64,000 bases of DNA from an uncultured Flavobacteriales bacterium (GCA_913020435.1 CAJVZZ010000002.1:1-64000), one strand, 5' to 3'. Positions 55,399 to 64,000 are shown, counted from the first letter of the stretch. Made by a program: numbers and translations. Notes: generated from the sequence alone by a model not told the origin.

Positions 55399-55724
55399 AA
55401 AGAGTATTTTCTGAAATTAATCCTTTTATCAAACTCTGCTTTATAATGGCCTACTTGACTATTCTCAATTAGACCAAAGATTCCAATGATTCGTCGTGTT
55501 GTTATTTAAACTAAAAAGATGGTATTAGCAATCTCTTCGTTTAGCACTTCAATTGTTTATAGCTTCTATTTGATCCTAAACAAAAGCTCTAAAAATTTTC
55601 AAAATCGTTTATTTAATTTTCAACCTTTTCAACCTATACAGCTTATACTTCGAACTAACCCATTCATTCAACAATAGCTCGAGAAAAATTTCAGTCAGAA
55701 AAACTAAATACAGAGAATAAAAAA
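55399..55724. other. Non-coding stretch, nothing recognised
   Basis: I find no open frame of note, RNA-like fold or clear promoter here. Short protein-like fragments on either strand were not convincing. It may be remnant DNA, like the adjacent nitroreductase pseudogene. Confidence 0.4.
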
Positions 55725-56051
55725 ATGGAATTATTAGATAAACTGAACTAACGTTATGCTGCTTCAGCCATGAATGGCAAAAAAATGCAGTAGAGAATTA
55801 TAACCATTTGGCTAAACAAGCATATATCGCTTTGACTCAAACTAAGATTTCGCTACTTTTCAAGGATTTAGCAGTACAACAATGGAAGGATTTGATACTA
55901 AAGCGTTAGACGAAATAATATCTCTAAAAAAAATATGACTCATAAATTTCGTTATGATTCCAATAGGATAACGAGATGATGAAAATGATTGTCTTGTTGG
56001 ACTGAAGCGGTTCGTAAAAGCATACGAGATTTAGTCACTGCTATAGGTTAA
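55725..56051 (+). pseudogene. Broken nitroreductase-family gene with internal deletion
   Basis: An ATG at 55725 starts MELLDKLN, an in-frame TAA, then RYAASAMNGKKMQ, the characteristic N-terminus of NfsB-like FMN nitroreductases. The sequence then jumps to the C-terminal third in changing frames (LAKQAYIALT, TMEGFDTKALDEIISLKK, CLVGLKRFVKA) and ends at TAA 56049-56051. A full gene would be about 630 bp, so roughly half is gone. Confidence 0.75.
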
Positions 56052-56432
56052 ACTTTGTACAAAATACTAGCCTATAAGAGTAAAATCAGTTTGGGAGTAT
56101 TACCAAACCGCTTTTGCATTCAAACTCAGTATTCTCTGTCTAAGTATTTTGCAATAAACACCTAAAAGTTTATGGCTACCTGTGTTTACTCCTCCTGAAA
56201 TTAACAACTACTTGAATGAGCTATTAACTTGAACTTAAGAAACATAATGTTACAAATAAGTCACAATGACTGATATTCCATATTCTGGAAAACCACACCT
56301 TAATTTGGACTTCCTCCATTTCAACACATCCTGAAATAAGGTTTATATATTTAATTATCAGTAAACTACAGCGCAACCCACTTTCTATGGCACGCCCTTT
56401 ATTGTGTAGTCAGTAACAAAACAATATTGACT
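56052..56432. other. Spacer before the polysaccharide cluster, nothing recognised
   Basis: No ORF, hairpin terminator or full -7/-33 promoter could be supported. It should nevertheless contain the promoter of the cluster that begins at 56433. Confidence 0.4.
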
Positions 56433-59078
56433 ATGAAAAAGATTTTTACAAGTGACCTAAATGTTCTGATCCTACTTTATGCTCCGATAAATTATTCAGT
56501 TCAAATCTTTGACCCATTTAATAAATTGGTAGAAGACGAGGAGATGATTTGGTTCAATGGAGATGCAAATGAAAATATACTCATCAGCTTAGGGAATGAG
56601 ATTCAAGAATATCGCGGAAAACAATTACCAGATTTCGACCAAGTTTTCAATTTTGGCAAAGGCCTAAAACACACGCATAAGTTTGCTAGAAGTTTTTCAT
56701 TTTTAAACGATCAAGAACAGAGGATCCGCTGGTACTTTCCCGAAGGAAAAATTTCTTCCGTATTGCCTTTTTACAATAGCGCTGGTTTACGAGGAAAAGT
56801 GATTTCAAGCTCAATAAAACTTGCCCAACTTTTCAATGCTTCTAGCTTCGTTGCATCTGGTAGGTTTCAGATTTTGAGTCAACAGCCTCTTAAAGTAGAA
56901 ACTCTTTCAAATATTACTTCGAAAGAGACTTACAGTATTTTAAGTGGAGCGAGAAGCGCACAGCGTACCGTTTTGTTAGCATTATTACAAGGAAAAAAAG
57001 TTACAGATTTTATTAAAATTCCTCTTTCAAAAACATCAATAGAAACCTTAACTAGAGAGAAAAACGTACTTAGAAAATTAAGTGAAATACAAACCAGAAC
57101 CTTTGCGCATGCGAATGATGGATCTGCCCACCCGTTAATTCTAAAAACTAATAATCTGCAAAAAAATGAAAGAATAAAAACTAAAAAGCTAACCCAACAG
57201 CATATCGACACAATTCTTGAGTTTGCAAATAGGAACCCACTTGTAACCAGAATTGAGAATACCGCTGTTTGGGGGAATTCAATGAGTAATATGTCTAAAA
57301 TGAAACAAGATGAAAACGAAGCAATAAAATCACTTTATGAACAAATAAGATTACTTAAGCATACTATAAACAAAGACCAGTTAGTACTTTCTTCAGCTTG
57401 CCATGGTGATTTTACACCGTGGAATATTTTCCACTCTAAACACGGTTTAGCTCTTTATGACTGGGAATTATATTCTGAAAGCGCACCCCCACTATACGAT
57501 CTATTCCATTTCATTTATCAACGAGGAATATTAATGCACCAGGAAAGTCCGCAACAAATCGAGAAACACTTAATAAATGCTTTAAAAAATTTCCCAGAGT
57601 TAAATGATCATTTAACTCAATACAAATTGAACTTTACTACTTGTCACCAATTGTATTTACTAAAAACAGCTAGCTATTTTGGAGCTCTATATTCAGCTTC
57701 CTATTTAACTATACAGCACAAATGGCAAATAGAAACTTGGTCAAAAGCGATTCAACAATTAGTCGCTCAAAAAGAAAAAGCAACTGAACGAGCAACATTT
57801 ATTATTCGATTAAATAAAGAATTACAATCAATGCAACACGCATACTTAAAATTCAATTTTGAAACAATTATAAATGTTCCGATAAGTTCTGACTTAGACA
57901 TTGCCTTAGAGAAAGCCCACCTCGATTCTATTCTAAATTTTTGCAAAACTGAGGCAGATGCCAAAATCAGCATTCGTAAAAAATCATTCATGACTACTGT
58001 AGAATTGTTCTTTGAAAACAACGAATTCTTAAGTCTAGACTTTATTCACGATTTTAAAAGAAAAGGAAATCGAATATTGGATATTCAAACAGTCTTAAAT
58101 CAATCTGAAATGAGCTCAAGAGGAATTCGAATTCCAGAATTAAAGCACGATATAGAGTATACTTTTTTGTTTTATACACTGAATAATTCAAGTATTCCAA
58201 AAAAATATTTGGACTTCTTTAACAAGAAAGATTTACTCTTAAAGCTCGAAGCAGTATTCTACCTCAACGAAAAATATGATGTAGACTTCGACAATATTCT
58301 AGAGTTGTTTTCTTTAAATATTAAGGACACAAAAGCTCAATTACTAAAAACACTTTCTAACTCTAAAATTGGATTTTATGAAATCATAAAGCTCAAAATA
58401 AACTACGTACTTGACACTATTAAATCCGCAGTATACCATAAAGGCTTCACCATAACCTTTAGTGGAGTAGATGGAGCCGGAAAGTCAACGATAATCGAAT
58501 TAGTAAAACAAGAACTTTCAGAAAAATACCGCAAGGAAGTTGTTCAATTGAGACATCGTCCAGGAATTTTACCAATACTAAACTCTTACAGAGTAGGCAC
58601 TAAAAAAGCAGAAGAATTAGCTACGATTAAATTACCAAGAAAAGGTTCTAACAAAAACGCTTTGAGTTCTTTACTGCGATTTTCATACTATTTCGCGGAC
58701 TACATTTTAGGTCAAATATATGTCTACTTCAAATATTTAATTAGAGGAAAGGTGGTGATTTATGATAGATATTATTTCGATTTTATCTCTGACCCAAAAA
58801 GAAGTAACATTCAATTGAACCCTAACATTGTTAAAGCACTTTACAGCTTAATTCTAAAGCCTAAACTGAACTTCTTCTTATATGCTAAATCAGAAGTTAT
58901 TTTGAAACGGAAAAAAGAATTAGATGCACAAACTATTGATCAATTAAGTGGAAAATACAGAGGCTTATTCAAAGAGTTAAATAAACAAGAACGAAATTCT
59001 AAATATATAGTAATCGAGAACCTTGAATTGTCGAAAACTCTGGATTCAGTATTAGCAGAATTTCAAAAAGTAGCCTAA
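56433..59078 (+). CDS. Fusion: APH-type kinase, nucleotidyltransferase-like domain and thymidylate-kinase-like domain
   Basis: The start is the ATG at 56433 (MKKIFTSDLN), giving 881 residues; a TTG two codons earlier is less likely. Residues 1-160 are unassigned. Residues about 165-445 look like an aminoglycoside-phosphotransferase-type kinase: N-lobe Lys in FIKIPLS, Glu in EKNVLRKL, catalytic CHGDFTPWNIF (323-333, Asp326) and metal site LYDWE (341-345). Residues about 460-590 resemble a minimal nucleotidyltransferase (SSDLDIALEKAH at 485-496). Residues 670-881 are a P-loop kinase (FSGVDGAGKSTIIELVKQEL, DRYYFDF) like thymidylate kinase. It opens a polysaccharide gene cluster, so a role in making or capping surface glycan is inferred; substrate unknown. 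Confidence 0.85.
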   Translation: MKKIFTSDLNVLILLYAPINYSVQIFDPFNKLVEDEEMIWFNGDANENILISLGNEIQEYRGKQLPDFDQVFNFGKGLKHTHKFARSFSFLNDQEQRIRWYFPEGKISSVLPFYNSAGLRGKVISSSIKLAQLFNASSFVASGRFQILSQQPLKVETLSNITSKETYSILSGARSAQRTVLLALLQGKKVTDFIKIPLSKTSIETLTREKNVLRKLSEIQTRTFAHANDGSAHPLILKTNNLQKNERIKTKKLTQQHIDTILEFANRNPLVTRIENTAVWGNSMSNMSKMKQDENEAIKSLYEQIRLLKHTINKDQLVLSSACHGDFTPWNIFHSKHGLALYDWELYSESAPPLYDLFHFIYQRGILMHQESPQQIEKHLINALKNFPELNDHLTQYKLNFTTCHQLYLLKTASYFGALYSASYLTIQHKWQIETWSKAIQQLVAQKEKATERATFIIRLNKELQSMQHAYLKFNFETIINVPISSDLDIALEKAHLDSILNFCKTEADAKISIRKKSFMTTVELFFENNEFLSLDFIHDFKRKGNRILDIQTVLNQSEMSSRGIRIPELKHDIEYTFLFYTLNNSSIPKKYLDFFNKKDLLLKLEAVFYLNEKYDVDFDNILELFSLNIKDTKAQLLKTLSNSKIGFYEIIKLKINYVLDTIKSAVYHKGFTITFSGVDGAGKSTIIELVKQELSEKYRKEVVQLRHRPGILPILNSYRVGTKKAEELATIKLPRKGSNKNALSSLLRFSYYFADYILGQIYVYFKYLIRGKVVIYDRYYFDFISDPKRSNIQLNPNIVKALYSLILKPKLNFFLYAKSEVILKRKKELDAQTIDQLSGKYRGLFKELNKQERNSKYIVIENLELSKTLDSVLAEFQKVA

Positions 59079-59098: not shown

Positions 59099-61465
59099 AT
59101 GAAAACAGTCATCGTGAGTGCTTATAGTGTAAATCCTTTTGAAGGTTCTGAAGGCGGAACAGGTTGGAATATAATAAACGAATTGAGCAAAGAAAACAAG
59201 CTGATCGTAGTTACTAGAAAGAATAATTTATCTAAGATTAGCCGATACATAGAAATAAACAATGCTGAAAATTTTAAAAACCTAGAAATTCATGGATACG
59301 ATCTTCCTAACTCGATTATGAAGTGGAAAAAGCATTTAGGCGAAAGAGGTTATGTTTTGTACTTCTACTTCTGGCAGTTATTCTTGCCTCTTTTTATCAA
59401 AAAGTCAGGATTCAAATTCGACCTGACTCATGCACTTAACTTTCATAGCGACAGTCACCCTACATTTCTTTGGGTGTTAGGAAAACCCACCATCTGGGGA
59501 CCAATAGGCCATCACCCAAAAGTTCCTAAGGCATTTATTCTAAAGCAGTATGGAAAATCAAGTTTTGCGAAAGACCGTGCCTATTTTGCTATAAAATGGG
59601 TAATGCGTAATCTAGACCCTCTGTATTATTTATCGAAATTAATGGTGAAAAAGGTTTTTGTAATTAACTCCAGCATACCCAAAGCTATAGGAGTAAAGGC
59701 CTCCAAAATAGTTATTTTACCAGCAGTTGCTGGCAATACTCCCGCAAATATTCAATCGAAGATCAAGGATGACTTTATGGTATTATCTGTAGGCAGATTT
59801 CATTATCTGAAGGGCTTTGATGTTGCCATTCGTTCATTTGCACTCTTTTTAAAGACGTTACCTCTTGAAGATCTATCTAAAACTAAATTGGTATTAGTTG
59901 GCAAAGGACCTGAAGAATCAAGTCTAAAAGCACTCATCGTAGAGCTTGGGATTCACAGAAATGTTGAAATTATTAACTGGGTAGAGAAATCCGAGATGGA
60001 TGCTATTTATCGCAATGCAAGTGTGTACTTATTTCCTTCTCATGAAGGAGCAGGAATGGTTATTCCAGAAGCACAGAGTTATGGAATTCCTACTATTACT
60101 TTCAACAATTTTGGACCAGGAGAACTGGCTGGCCCGAATGCAATTAAGGTGGCTTACAGCGAGTATGATTTTTCAATCCAAGGATTTAATAACCAATTAA
60201 AAAGATTGTTCAGTAACTCTAATTTCTACCTAAAACAATCGAATTTAGCACTTCAACATTTTAAAGAGAACCATACATGGGAAGCAAAAGCGTCAGCCAT
60301 TAACACTGTCTATAACGAATTGATGCCAAACAATACTATTGCTGTATTTCACCCTTCTTCAGAGCTTTATGGAGCCGATAGAGTTCTAGTGAATGCTCTA
60401 GGAGCTATTCCATCTGAAATAAAAAAAGTAGTTTACCTTAAATCCCAAGGAACGCTAGTTGATTTTATTCCAAGTAATGTCGAGAACGTAACTATAAAGG
60501 TTATTCCATATTTACCGATAATCTATCGAGCCCTTTTTACCCCAAAAGGCATTCTCAAATTTGGATTAGAATGGTTCAGGTTCTCAGCATACTTCATTAG
60601 TGAAAATAGAAAATATAAATTTAAATCAGCTTATGTTAACACACTTTCAACTAGTCTCATTTCACCTGTGCTAAAACTAGTTGGAGTTCGACATTTCACT
60701 CATGTGCACGAAATAATTGAAAATCCAAAAGCAATAGGAAACCTAACCGCTTGGTTAGGTTATTTATTTAGCGATAAAATGGTTTGCGTATCTCAGGCTG
60801 TAGAAGACAATCTAGTAAGTTACCTATCTCGACTTGAAAGCAAATCAGTGGTTATTCATAATGGAATTGATGCTTTGAAAGTGCCTATCAAAGCGATCGA
60901 AGAGAAAGTTAATTTTTACCTCTTCGGTAGAATTATGGAAAAGAAAGGTCAGTGGTTTTTAATCGATGCACTTAAGCAGGTTTCAGAAGAAGTTAGAAAA
61001 CAACTAAATATTGTTTTAATGGGTGGAGTGGTCCCAGGAAAAGAAGATCAATTAGCGATTTTAAAATCTGAAATAAAAAAGAATAACTTAGAGAAAATAG
61101 TTACAATTAAAGGTTTTGAGAACTCAATTGATGCCGCTATGGCTAAAGCTGATGTTTGTTTGGTTCCTTCTATGATGAAGGATCCTTTCCCTACGACTGT
61201 TTTAGAAGCAATGAGCGCTGGAAAACCGGTAATCGCAACGAATCATGGAGGCGCAAAAGAGGCCCTTAATGGAAATAATTGTGGCTTATTAATTCACCCT
61301 GGCGCCATTAGTGAATTAGCCGCAAGCATAACGATAATGGTAACTCACAAGTCTCGAATTAAGGGTATGGGTGCCGCTGCTAAAAAGCGTTTTGAATCGA
61401 ACTACACTAAAGAGCATTTCAATAAAAAATGGTTGGAATTCAATGTTAAAGGAGCTTTTATTTAA
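59099..61465 (+). CDS. Tandem GT4 glycosyltransferase fusion
   Basis: The 788-residue protein is two GT-B glycosyltransferases in one chain. Residues 1-415 start SAYSVNPFEGSEGGTGWNIINEL and contain MVLSVGRFHYLKGFDVAIRSF and the EX7E motif EGAGMVIPEAQSYGIP. Residues 416-788 start IAVFHPSSELYGADRVLVNAL and contain VVIHNGID, FYLFGRIMEKKGQWFLIDAL and DPFPTTVLEAMSAGKPVIATNHGGAKEAL, where the first acidic residue is Asp. Both halves have complete donor-site regions, so both could be active, adding two sugars in sequence. It lies 20 bp after the kinase fusion. Confidence 0.92.
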   Translation: MKTVIVSAYSVNPFEGSEGGTGWNIINELSKENKLIVVTRKNNLSKISRYIEINNAENFKNLEIHGYDLPNSIMKWKKHLGERGYVLYFYFWQLFLPLFIKKSGFKFDLTHALNFHSDSHPTFLWVLGKPTIWGPIGHHPKVPKAFILKQYGKSSFAKDRAYFAIKWVMRNLDPLYYLSKLMVKKVFVINSSIPKAIGVKASKIVILPAVAGNTPANIQSKIKDDFMVLSVGRFHYLKGFDVAIRSFALFLKTLPLEDLSKTKLVLVGKGPEESSLKALIVELGIHRNVEIINWVEKSEMDAIYRNASVYLFPSHEGAGMVIPEAQSYGIPTITFNNFGPGELAGPNAIKVAYSEYDFSIQGFNNQLKRLFSNSNFYLKQSNLALQHFKENHTWEAKASAINTVYNELMPNNTIAVFHPSSELYGADRVLVNALGAIPSEIKKVVYLKSQGTLVDFIPSNVENVTIKVIPYLPIIYRALFTPKGILKFGLEWFRFSAYFISENRKYKFKSAYVNTLSTSLISPVLKLVGVRHFTHVHEIIENPKAIGNLTAWLGYLFSDKMVCVSQAVEDNLVSYLSRLESKSVVIHNGIDALKVPIKAIEEKVNFYLFGRIMEKKGQWFLIDALKQVSEEVRKQLNIVLMGGVVPGKEDQLAILKSEIKKNNLEKIVTIKGFENSIDAAMAKADVCLVPSMMKDPFPTTVLEAMSAGKPVIATNHGGAKEALNGNNCGLLIHPGAISELAASITIMVTHKSRIKGMGAAAKKRFESNYTKEHFNKKWLEFNVKGAFI

Positions 61466-61707: not shown

Positions 61708-62928
61708 ATGATCGCGAAAAAGAATGTAGCAATTATAGGAACCGTTGGGGTTCCTGCCTGTTATGGAGGATTTGAAACCTTAGCAGAGCAACTTATTAGC
61801 AACAACGATGGAAGTCACACCATGACAGTCTATTGCTCAGGAAAAAAATATCCTAAAGCTAAAAGAATGGACACCTATAAGGGAGCTAAATTGAAGTATC
61901 TGCCTCTCGAAGCTAATGGGGTCCAGAGTATTTTGTACGATACATTTTCTATTATTCATGCACTTTTTTTTTCTGACGTATTACTAGTTTTAGGCGTTTC
62001 TGGGGCCTATTTATTTCCGTTCATTCGACTACTAACCAATAAAAAAATCATTGTTTCCATTGATGGTATTGAATGGAAAAGAGACAAATGGAGTCGCTTA
62101 GCTAAATGGTATTTATGGTGGGCTGAAAAAATGGCTGTTAGATATTCTCATCTTGATATCTCAGACAATGAATCCATTCAAGATTATACCGCAATACGTT
62201 ACGGTACTTTAAGCAACATTATCGAATATGGAGCAGACCATGCTTCTAAAGTAAAAATTGCAAGAAGTGATATTAAAACCTATCCCTTTTTAGCAAAGCC
62301 CTATGCATTTAAAGTGTGCCGAATCGAACCGGAAAACAACATTCATATAGTGCTCGATGCTTTTTCTCACTTATCGAAATACACTTTAGTTATGGTCGGA
62401 AATTGGAATAATAGTGACTATGGAATAGAACTTAGAAGACGGTTTGGCAACTACAAAAACATCAATTTACTAAACCCAATTTACGATCAAATTCAACTCG
62501 ACTTATTGCGCTCTAACTGTTTTCTGTATTTACATGGTCACAGCGCTGGTGGCACAAACCCTTCATTAGTAGAGGCAATGTATTTAAGCCTTCCCATTCT
62601 ATCTTTTGGTGTTTCTTACAATAGAACTACAACAGACCATAAGGCATTCTACTTTGAAACTGGAGAAGACATTCAGCAGATTATAAAGACAACCAAATTG
62701 GCAGATTTTAAAAAGCAAGGAAGGTTAATGAAAACCATAGCTGACAATAGGTATACTTGGAAAATAGTATGTGCAAAATATACTTTCCTAGTTAAAAAAG
62801 CACTTGAAATTGACACTAAAAAATCGATTGAGCCTTCGGTAAAGTCAATAAATAAAAATATCCTAAGAAATATTGAACTAAACCACCTCACCCAGCAAAA
62901 TCTACTCTTTCAAAATCCAGCATTATGA
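61708..62928 (+). CDS. DUF1972-type glycosyltransferase (rhamnosyltransferase-like)
   Basis: The 406-residue enzyme begins with the DUF1972 block KNVAIIGTVGVPACYGGFETLAEQL, typical of WchF/CpsT-like transferases that add the second sugar of a repeat unit. It also has VSIDGIEWKRDKWSRLAKWYLWWAEKMAV and a GT4-like C-terminal half (AFKVCRIEPENNIHIVLDAF, HGHSAGGTNPSLVEAMYLSLPILSF). The acceptor and donor cannot be read. Its stop overlaps the next start (ATGA), so the two are translationally coupled, which fits successive steps on the same lipid-linked sugar. Confidence 0.92.
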   Translation: MIAKKNVAIIGTVGVPACYGGFETLAEQLISNNDGSHTMTVYCSGKKYPKAKRMDTYKGAKLKYLPLEANGVQSILYDTFSIIHALFFSDVLLVLGVSGAYLFPFIRLLTNKKIIVSIDGIEWKRDKWSRLAKWYLWWAEKMAVRYSHLDISDNESIQDYTAIRYGTLSNIIEYGADHASKVKIARSDIKTYPFLAKPYAFKVCRIEPENNIHIVLDAFSHLSKYTLVMVGNWNNSDYGIELRRRFGNYKNINLLNPIYDQIQLDLLRSNCFLYLHGHSAGGTNPSLVEAMYLSLPILSFGVSYNRTTTDHKAFYFETGEDIQQIIKTTKLADFKKQGRLMKTIADNRYTWKIVCAKYTFLVKKALEIDTKKSIEPSVKSINKNILRNIELNHLTQQNLLFQNPAL

Positions 62929-64000
62929 AATCACTGCTACTAGAATCTATCATTATTTTCATATCTTCATTTTTGGTTGCAAAAGCGACAATTCCTATAC
63001 TTTCTAAAAGAAGTATTTGGTTAGGATTGATTGACAAACCCAATGCTCGAAAAATTCACAAAAATCCAATTCCACTTATTGGCGGAATAGCAATTCTTAC
63101 TGGGGTTTTATTTGGCCTTATGCTCAGCCAAACAGCACAAGTATTAATAATAAATCATCTCGCAGCAGTTGGCAGCACTCTTGCCATATTCTTGATTGGT
63201 CTTTGGGATGACAGAAGCGCCTTATCACCAAAGATTAGATTGGTAATTCAATGCTCTGCAGCAATTGGAATAAGCCTTTCAGGCATTCGAATAGAATCAC
63301 TTTATGGCATCTTTGGAATAGAAATACTCCCTATTTATATGCAACATTTAATAACTATTGTAATCATTGCAGGAGTAACCAACGCTTTTAACCTTGTTGA
63401 TGGAATAGATGGTTTAGCAGGAAGCTTAGCCCTACTAAACGTTAGCATTTTAGCAATTCTATTTATCATTATCGGGAATTATGGTGCGGCATTTATTTTT
63501 ATTGCTTTTATTGGCGCGCTTATTCCTTTTCTAATGGCTAATAATCATCCGGCAAGAATCTTTATGGGTGATGGTGGATCGATGGTGTTAGGGTTCTTTA
63601 CTGCATTATCTGGAATCTATTTTATTCAGGAAAATACTATTCAGCAAACTGTTCCAGCAAGTTTATCCGTTTTACTTATTTCAGCAATCCTAATTATTCC
63701 TGTTGTAGATGCATTGCGTGTATTTATTGGTCGTTTTGCTAAAGGCAGCTCGATTTTCACACCAGACAAAAGTCACTTACATCATTTAATTCTATATTTT
63801 GGAATCAACCATTTCTTAGTAACTAATAGTATACTATTTATTGAACTATTAATCGTTGGATCTACCATTCTATTATTTCAATTCTACTCTATCACAGCTA
63901 TTTTCATTCTTCTATTTACAGGTCTGATTTTCATTACTAAGATTTTGAAAATCAATGCTTCACTTACCGAATGGCAACAAAAAATGAAAACATTGGAAAA
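62925..64000 (+). CDS. Undecaprenyl-phosphate sugar-1-phosphate transferase, WecA/MraY family (3' end outside window)
   Basis: The frame from ATG 62925 stays open to the end of the window (358 codons). It is a polytopic membrane protein with WecA/MraY motifs: DKPNARKIHKNPIPLIGGIA, GLWDDRSALSPKIRL, NAFNLVDGIDGLAGSL, ARIFMGDGGSMVLGF and the HIHH-like DKSHLHHL. It loads the first sugar phosphate (GlcNAc-1-P or similar) onto undecaprenyl phosphate and so initiates repeat-unit assembly. Overlap with the DUF1972 transferase places both in one pathway. MraY proper is less likely given the glycosyltransferase context. Confidence 0.93.
   Translation, partial: MKSLLLESIIIFISSFLVAKATIPILSKRSIWLGLIDKPNARKIHKNPIPLIGGIAILTGVLFGLMLSQTAQVLIINHLAAVGSTLAIFLIGLWDDRSALSPKIRLVIQCSAAIGISLSGIRIESLYGIFGIEILPIYMQHLITIVIIAGVTNAFNLVDGIDGLAGSLALLNVSILAILFIIIGNYGAAFIFIAFIGALIPFLMANNHPARIFMGDGGSMVLGFFTALSGIYFIQENTIQQTVPASLSVLLISAILIIPVVDALRVFIGRFAKGSSIFTPDKSHLHHLILYFGINHFLVTNSILFIELLIVGSTILLFQFYSITAIFILLFTGLIFITKILKINASLTEWQQKMKTLE

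Follow-up and report, generated by a model that had tools for sequence, protein, structure and literature searches.

Three enzymatic domains in one chain

The window (the whole 64,000-nt stretch of DNA analysed here, from an uncultured Flavobacteriales bacterium) contains an open frame at 56433-59078, which from its ATG encodes an 881-residue protein comprising an APH-type kinase, a nucleotidyltransferase and a TMPK-fold kinase; a TTG six bases 5′ of the ATG provides an alternative start. This gene and all other window features described below lie on the plus strand. The motifs from which the original prediction was built are all found in the frame, with HGDFTPWN at residues 324-331, DWE at 343-345, SDLDIAL at 486-492 and GVDGAGKST at 678-686. 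The gene is real and not a chance frame, because it has full-length relatives (82% identity in a sister genome and 29-39% in others) and because a scan of GTDB genome contigs finds relatives encoded on at least 312 contigs. The best 80 of these contigs belong to Bacteroidota (Flavobacteriales, Cytophagales, Chitinophagales, Bacteroidales and others), Balneolales MAGs included. Among 100 related genomes, 16 carry a full-length homologue and three more give partial matches only, and the family is absent from the viral contigs searched. The dN/dS values against the sister genome (0.16 for the N-terminus, 0.17 for the APH part, 0.16 for the nucleotidyltransferase and 0.05 for the TMPK part) point to purifying selection acting on all domains. 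Upstream of the gene, at 55720-56070, stop-broken pieces resembling ELLDKLN..RYAASAMNGKKM are present, which by their look may be a decayed nitroreductase remnant.

The AlphaFold2 model of the whole protein, built with 16 homologues, has a mean pLDDT of 84.3. The catalytic set (K195/D326/N331/D343 in the APH part, D487/D489/D536 in the nucleotidyltransferase and GxDGxGK/DR in the TMPK part) is unchanged in 76 of 79 aligned relatives, and the remaining three differ only by K to R or D to E. The folds predicted for the three domains and the retention of their catalytic residues in nearly all relatives bear out the earlier claim of three intact enzymatic domains; that the active sites are intact, and that the domains look active, is well supported by these alignments and models.

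The APH-type kinase spans residues 84-450 (56682-57782) and is composed of an N-lobe carrying K195 and E209 and a C-lobe carrying HGDFTPWN and DWE. K195 (57015-57017), the predicted ATP-binding lysine, is K in 77 of the 79 relatives and R in two, and forms with E209 the expected ATP lysine and partner. The APH catalytic loop HGDFTPWN (57402-57425) retains D326 and N331 in 79/79 relatives, as does the predicted metal-binding motif D343-W-E345 (57459-57467) its D and E, so that the catalytic K, E, HxDxxxxN and DxE of APH phosphotransferases are all present. The APH profile PF01636 scores 22.6 bits over residues 320-377 when the whole protein is searched, just below the cut-off of 23.2, and 24.5 bits on the APH segment alone; 25 of 31 family members match. 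Foldseek matches the APH part to 5-methylthioribose kinase (2pul, E 4.5e-5), an APH-fold enzyme. Because every row of the VIA-align structural alignment of the full model is a TMPK, the APH identity rests on the 2pul match, the motifs and the profile matches. Although the catalytic loop, the DxE and the N-lobe K and E are shared with the APH/choline-kinase-like phosphotransferases of PF01636, the APH part forms a subfamily of its own, marked by a conserved RW near its start and by F(T)GTxGxxR, and none of the curated APH subfamilies compared fits it.

The N-lobe also bears on the earlier statement that the first 160 residues match nothing. This holds only for about residues 1-83 (56433-56681), a variable extension that is shortened or absent in about half of the 79 relatives; from about residue 84 the chain is APH N-lobe, and a stand-alone APH protein aligns with it from residue 87 onward. 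A 486-aa stand-alone APH relative is encoded at L136:1055-2515 (minus strand) in genome G057, on a contig without a recognised operon partner.

The middle nucleotidyltransferase fold, on whose presence the original prediction depended, is found. Residues 451-668 (57783-58436) form a Pol-beta-type nucleotidyltransferase domain with a helical tail, which, folded alone by AlphaFold2 with 62 homologues, reaches a pLDDT of 95.6. The best solved relatives in VIA-align are MenT1 (Z 11.3), ANT(2'')-Ia (Z 10.4) and JHP933 (Z 10.0), and TglT structures are also among its matches. SDLDIAL at 486-492 (57888-57908) provides a predicted metal-binding DxD, in which D487 is kept in 79/79 relatives and D489 in 78/79, with E in one; D536 (58038-58040), the third acidic residue, is kept in 79/79. 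Together, the predicted fold, the DxD and the third acidic residue clearly argue for membership of the Pol-beta-type nucleotidyltransferase superfamily. ANT(2'')-Ia and MenT have this fold in common with the middle domain (Z 10-11), but at 9-12% identity, with other substrates and without a kinase fusion. Toxins and regulators such as MenT use this fold too, so the fold by itself does not imply catalysis on a glycan.

Placing the middle domain within this superfamily is less straightforward. The Pfam scan of the 881-aa protein gives no family for the middle part. NTP_transf_5 (PF14907) is the sole clearly recurring Pfam family when the 62 members are searched, and recurs weakly (8/62 members, best E 1.7e-4); at its cut-off of 31.2 bits it has no match to the 881-aa protein or in its own genome, and we rejected PF14907 membership. 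An hhalign comparison with 15 true NTP_transf_5 domains gives a probability of 66% with the DxD motifs aligned, and the lysine followed by DxD, the third acidic residue and the helical tail are shared, so that a more distant relationship may exist. Foldseek matches the domain to FKRP (6kal, E 0.033), with viral LicD/FKRP-like entries also listed; LicD is absent among the Pfam matches listed for it.

The C-terminal TMPK-fold P-loop kinase occupies residues 669-881 (58437-59075). PF02223 scores 35.5 bits over residues 677-854 (cut-off 27), and VIA-align superimposes the domain on Thermus thermophilus TMK with Z 18.7 and an rmsd of 2.8 over 182 residues. The fold, the Walker A GVDGAGKST at 678-686 (58464-58490; GxDGxGKST in thymidylate kinases) and the DR[YH] motif are shared with the thymidylate kinase family (PF02223/TIGR00041), and the P-loop lysine and DR are invariant in the 79 aligned relatives. 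By contrast, the score against the dTMP kinase equivalog TIGR00041 is 31.6 bits, below the cut-off of 83.25, and an alignment with three canonical enzymes from relatives reveals that the dTMP acceptor motifs REPGG, FxADR and SxxAYQ are exchanged for the conserved, family-specific RHRP, RFxYYxxDYxxGQ and DRYYFDFxxDxxRSN. RHRP lies at residues 707-710 (58551-58562), where dTMP kinases have REPGG, and DRYYFDF at 778-784 (58764-58784) joins the DR[YH] motif to a family-specific acceptor segment. Because the dTMP-site motifs are missing, the domain is probably not a thymidylate kinase, and of the earlier label of a TMPK-type kinase the fold stands and the dTMP-binding motifs do not.

These replaced motifs and the low equivalog score also bear on the idea of a fused housekeeping dTMP kinase serving dTDP-sugar supply. 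In its favour, no dTMP kinase scores above the NCBI cut-off in most of the sampled genomes (only 3 of the 100 Bacteroidia relatives have a canonical one), but the full fusion is missing from 84 of the same 100, and we regard the idea as highly improbable. We also rejected the protein as a stand-in for a missing dTMP kinase, canonical tmk being mostly absent among the 100 relatives with or without the 881-aa protein. The weak dTMP-kinase signals in its own genome come from two kinases that by eye are of dNK type (L102:1402-2037, minus strand, and L104:1150-1785, plus strand).

A conserved exopolysaccharide operon and split forms of the module

The gene stands in a surface-glycan cluster, as the original prediction had proposed. 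In the window it is followed by a 788-aa protein of two fused GT4 glycosyltransferases with two PF00534 stretches (59099-61465), a DUF1972 plus GT4 glycosyltransferase (61708-62928), which is found in 48 of 52 long loci, and a WecA-type polyprenyl-phosphate sugar-1-phosphate transferase (62925-64000), which continues beyond the window end; the latter is assigned by PF00953 on L100:6926-8008, and a relative of it matches ECA_wecA. Past the window end, the genome encodes a sigma-54 regulator, a histidine-kinase-like gene, a receiver protein, Wza, Wzc, Wzx, GT4 and Wzy. Clustering of the flanks of 80 loci, with typical members identified, gave the usual order: response-regulator receiver, Wza, Wzz/Wzc, Wzx-like, GT4, Wzy, the 881-aa homologue, hexapeptide acetyltransferase, GT4, GT4, DUF1972 GT and WecA. 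Pedobacter polysacchareus (locus L082) is one of the bacteria that carry the operon. The order seen here (881-aa gene, double GT4, DUF1972 GT, WecA) is thus the same gene set rearranged, and the description of the gene as first in its cluster is right for this genome, but most relatives lie mid-operon between wzy and the acetyltransferase/GT genes.

Among the 52 loci having more than 8 kb on both sides, the partners are the DUF1972 GT (48), the GT4 pair (48), Wzy (45), Wzc (44), Wzx (43), WecA (41) and Wza (41). What is called Wzx here is a polytopic, Wzx-like protein that matches no Pfam family and is named by sequence and position. It is found (E below 1e-50) in exactly the 16 of 100 genomes that have the full-length protein, an overlap with a chance of about 7e-19 if shared ancestry is ignored, and the distances of the three domains correlate with the Wzx distances at 0.76-0.82, uncorrected for species phylogeny. 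On this genomic evidence, it is well supported that the 881-aa protein belongs to a conserved Wzx/Wzy exopolysaccharide pathway of Bacteroidota. The conserved operon contains no recognised sugar-nucleotide synthesis gene, phosphoalditol transferase or LicD-type transferase.

The surroundings of the operon show further recurrent features. It often adjoins a sigma-54 response regulator and a PAS histidine kinase (for example at L021:18992-22628, and in L040 and L071), and some loci encode a 180-aa protein that by eye is H-NOX-like, or a FIST-sensor-like protein; these neighbours suggest gas or small-molecule control of slime production. Directly upstream in several Flavobacteriales loci (L024, L026, L056, L067 and L093) are secreted-looking proteins of about 2,100 aa, which belong to one cluster (cluster 15) and are possible adhesins or polymer-binding proteins.

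The same parts also occur as separate genes. In a survey of 395 Bacteroidota genomes, one operon of the usual order (G133) has, in place of the fusion, an APH gene (484 aa) and a nucleotidyltransferase-TMPK gene (432 aa) with 86 bases between them, the fission point being the APH/nucleotidyltransferase domain border. Two further genomes (G248 and G272) have, in other polysaccharide loci, an APH gene adjacent to a TMPK gene that is extended at its N-terminal end by a long segment, where the nucleotidyltransferase is weak or unscored. Beyond Bacteroidota, an APH gene and a nucleotidyltransferase-TMPK gene share one polysaccharide cluster on plasmids of Agrobacterium leguminum and of four Leisingera strains, and the pair is likewise in a polysaccharide cluster on a plasmid of Legionella adelaidensis; the gene order in Legionella, G248 and G272 is reversed compared with the fusion. 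Against the family profiles, the plasmid split forms score 71-119 bits for APH and 57-120 bits for TMPK, with the nucleotidyltransferase profile reaching 20 bits in Agrobacterium and the domain being recognised by motif alone in Leisingera and Legionella. A Streptomyces plasmid may tentatively be added as having all three parts as separate genes (APH E 0.023, TMPK E 2.5e-9, nucleotidyltransferase by motif only). A true NTP_transf_5-TMPK fusion without APH occurs in a glycosyltransferase/Wzi locus of another Bacteroidota genome (G090), and a plasmid search with the NTP_transf_5-TMPK fusion P0003 gave no match.

Decay of the module is seen in one locus (G061), where Wzx, Wzy and Wzc are gone. 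The homologue there is missing its TMPK part, two catalytic Asp of its nucleotidyltransferase are replaced by E and N, and the APH part persists without TMPK; from its sequence, this locus appears to record a coordinated decay of module and export genes. Fusion in one phylum with separate neighbours elsewhere is a classical sign of joint function. Since other polysaccharide loci contain these parts as separate genes close to one another, we regard the three as one functional module, and with polysaccharide synthesis as the genomic context wherever it is readable, it is very probably a module of polysaccharide synthesis.

A proposed tailoring step and its alternatives

We tentatively propose, with confidence falling short of even, that the protein works in the cytoplasm as a tailoring enzyme of the conserved Bacteroidota Wzx/Wzy pathway, carrying out three phosphoryl or nucleotidyl steps on the lipid-linked repeat unit. 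The substrate, the reaction order and the final chemical group are what we infer as follows. The hydroxyl phosphorylated by the APH domain would belong to the undecaprenyl-linked repeat unit or to a group attached to it. A further phosphorylation, of that phosphomonoester or of a related intermediate already bearing phosphate, would fall to the TMPK-fold domain, and the nucleotidyltransferase domain would transfer a nucleotidyl group or a phospho group borne by a nucleotide. The repeat unit would thereby carry a phosphate-containing substituent before Wzx flipping and Wzy polymerisation. Because the operon lacks genes for sugar-nucleotide synthesis and phosphoalditol/LicD-type transferases, an activated donor diffusing freely would have only a GT4 as an evident user, and we therefore prefer tailoring directly on the lipid-linked repeat unit, on the cytoplasmic side and ahead of Wzx. 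Successive phosphorylation and nucleotidyl transfer had originally been read from the order of the domains, but the order in the chain is silent on reactions, and the kinase is a separate protein in Agrobacterium, Legionella and some Bacteroidota. Points against the proposal are the weak match of the APH part to curated families, the use of the nucleotidyltransferase fold by toxins and regulators, and the G061 locus, whose APH part persists without TMPK, albeit amid decay.

The module might instead activate a precursor. In that case the APH domain would act on an alditol, an amino alcohol or a rare sugar, phosphorylating it as a free small molecule, the TMPK-fold domain would make a diphosphate or recycle released NMP, and the nucleotidyltransferase would make or use an NDP-activated donor, with the logic of LicA-LicC-LicD in one chain. 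Choline, methylthioribose and hexosamine kinases are among the enzymes with an APH fold, and the APH part indeed matches 2pul, its choline kinase match being weak; FKRP/LicD-type folds appear among the Foldseek matches of the middle domain. The LicC-type fold is a different one, however, and the operon has no extra transferase for such a donor unless a GT4 takes that part, which leaves precursor activation rather unlikely in our estimate and weakens the earlier suggestion that an unusual sugar is activated, there being no recognised sugar-nucleotide synthesis gene or donor-using transferase other than of GT4 type.

Two further readings place the module at the export machinery or the chain end. 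If it modified or sensed that machinery (for example Wzc), it could toggle polymer export and leave the polymer unchanged. In most of the operon Wzc proteins (for example L097:4011-6170) the Walker A of the BY-kinase part looks altered, the strict GxGK[ST] being kept in 10 of 51 (the pattern is strict, and some altered ones may bind ATP), and this C-terminal part is often without an obvious tyrosine-rich tail; with Walker A altered, normal tyrosine-phosphorylation control may be missing. TakA-TglT toxin systems pair a kinase with a nucleotidyltransferase, and TglT is among the structural matches already described. Set against such a regulatory role, which we consider improbable, are the three metabolic-type active sites retained in nearly all relatives and the split-form loci of other phyla, which have their own annotated tyrosine autokinase or CpsD/CapB-type kinase. 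Alternatively, the module could phosphorylate and then modify the end of the growing or finished chain and thereby set chain length, much as WbdD, a glycan kinase of protein-kinase fold with a second enzyme fused to it, does in ABC-transporter O-antigen systems; the position of the gene next to wzy in most loci is compatible with this, but chain length in Wzx/Wzy pathways is normally set by Wzz/Wzc, and the operon encodes such a protein, so that we grant chain-end capping only a slim chance. Glycan capping or tailoring, taken together, remains our preferred class of function, with tailoring of the lipid-linked repeat unit as its leading form. A reading as anti-phage defence or toxin was rejected on the polysaccharide context; the PADLOC matches are weak and lie on the P-loop region or on one split relative's kinase.

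A narrower version of repeat-unit tailoring, which we hold to be doubtful as a whole, is that the module, joined in one chain in Bacteroidota and encoded by separate genes in other phyla, adds a pyrophosphate- or nucleotide-type substituent to the repeat unit of a secreted polysaccharide. Counting against both this version and the broader proposal, we know of no nucleotide- or pyrophosphate-bearing exopolysaccharide, and no polysaccharide structures from these operons were found.

Relation to known glycan systems

None of the folds is new, and annotations already record TMPK-like and APH-like genes in glycan loci. In the open-licence literature, in keeping with the earlier view of a combination without an assigned function, we found no publication describing or assigning the three-part module, and in the annotated records examined its genes are labelled only "hypothetical protein" or "phosphotransferase". 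The three-part combination would be a further form of tailoring module in Wzx/Wzy pathways, and its chemistry may itself be new. Hundreds of Bacteroidota genome contigs carry the module, which is also present in at least two proteobacterial classes. If phosphate- or nucleotide-type tailoring is its role, a constant but unassigned gene of a widespread slime pathway would be accounted for, charged polymers would become predictable from sequence, and the TMPK-like proteins of glycan loci would represent a biochemical step open to testing. Natural splitting of the chain at the domain border offers ready-made separate proteins for assays.

Two characterised systems resemble the module in logic only. 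The O-antigen chain terminator WbdD, absent among the sequence and structure matches listed for the 881-aa protein, is likewise a glycan-phosphorylating kinase fused to a second enzyme and encoded in a polysaccharide locus, but its second enzyme is a methyltransferase and its pathway is of the ABC-transporter type. The LicA-LicC-LicD phosphocholine pathway similarly combines an APH-type kinase with nucleotide-dependent transfer to a glycan, whereas LicC has another fold and the TMPK-fold part of the module has no counterpart in it.
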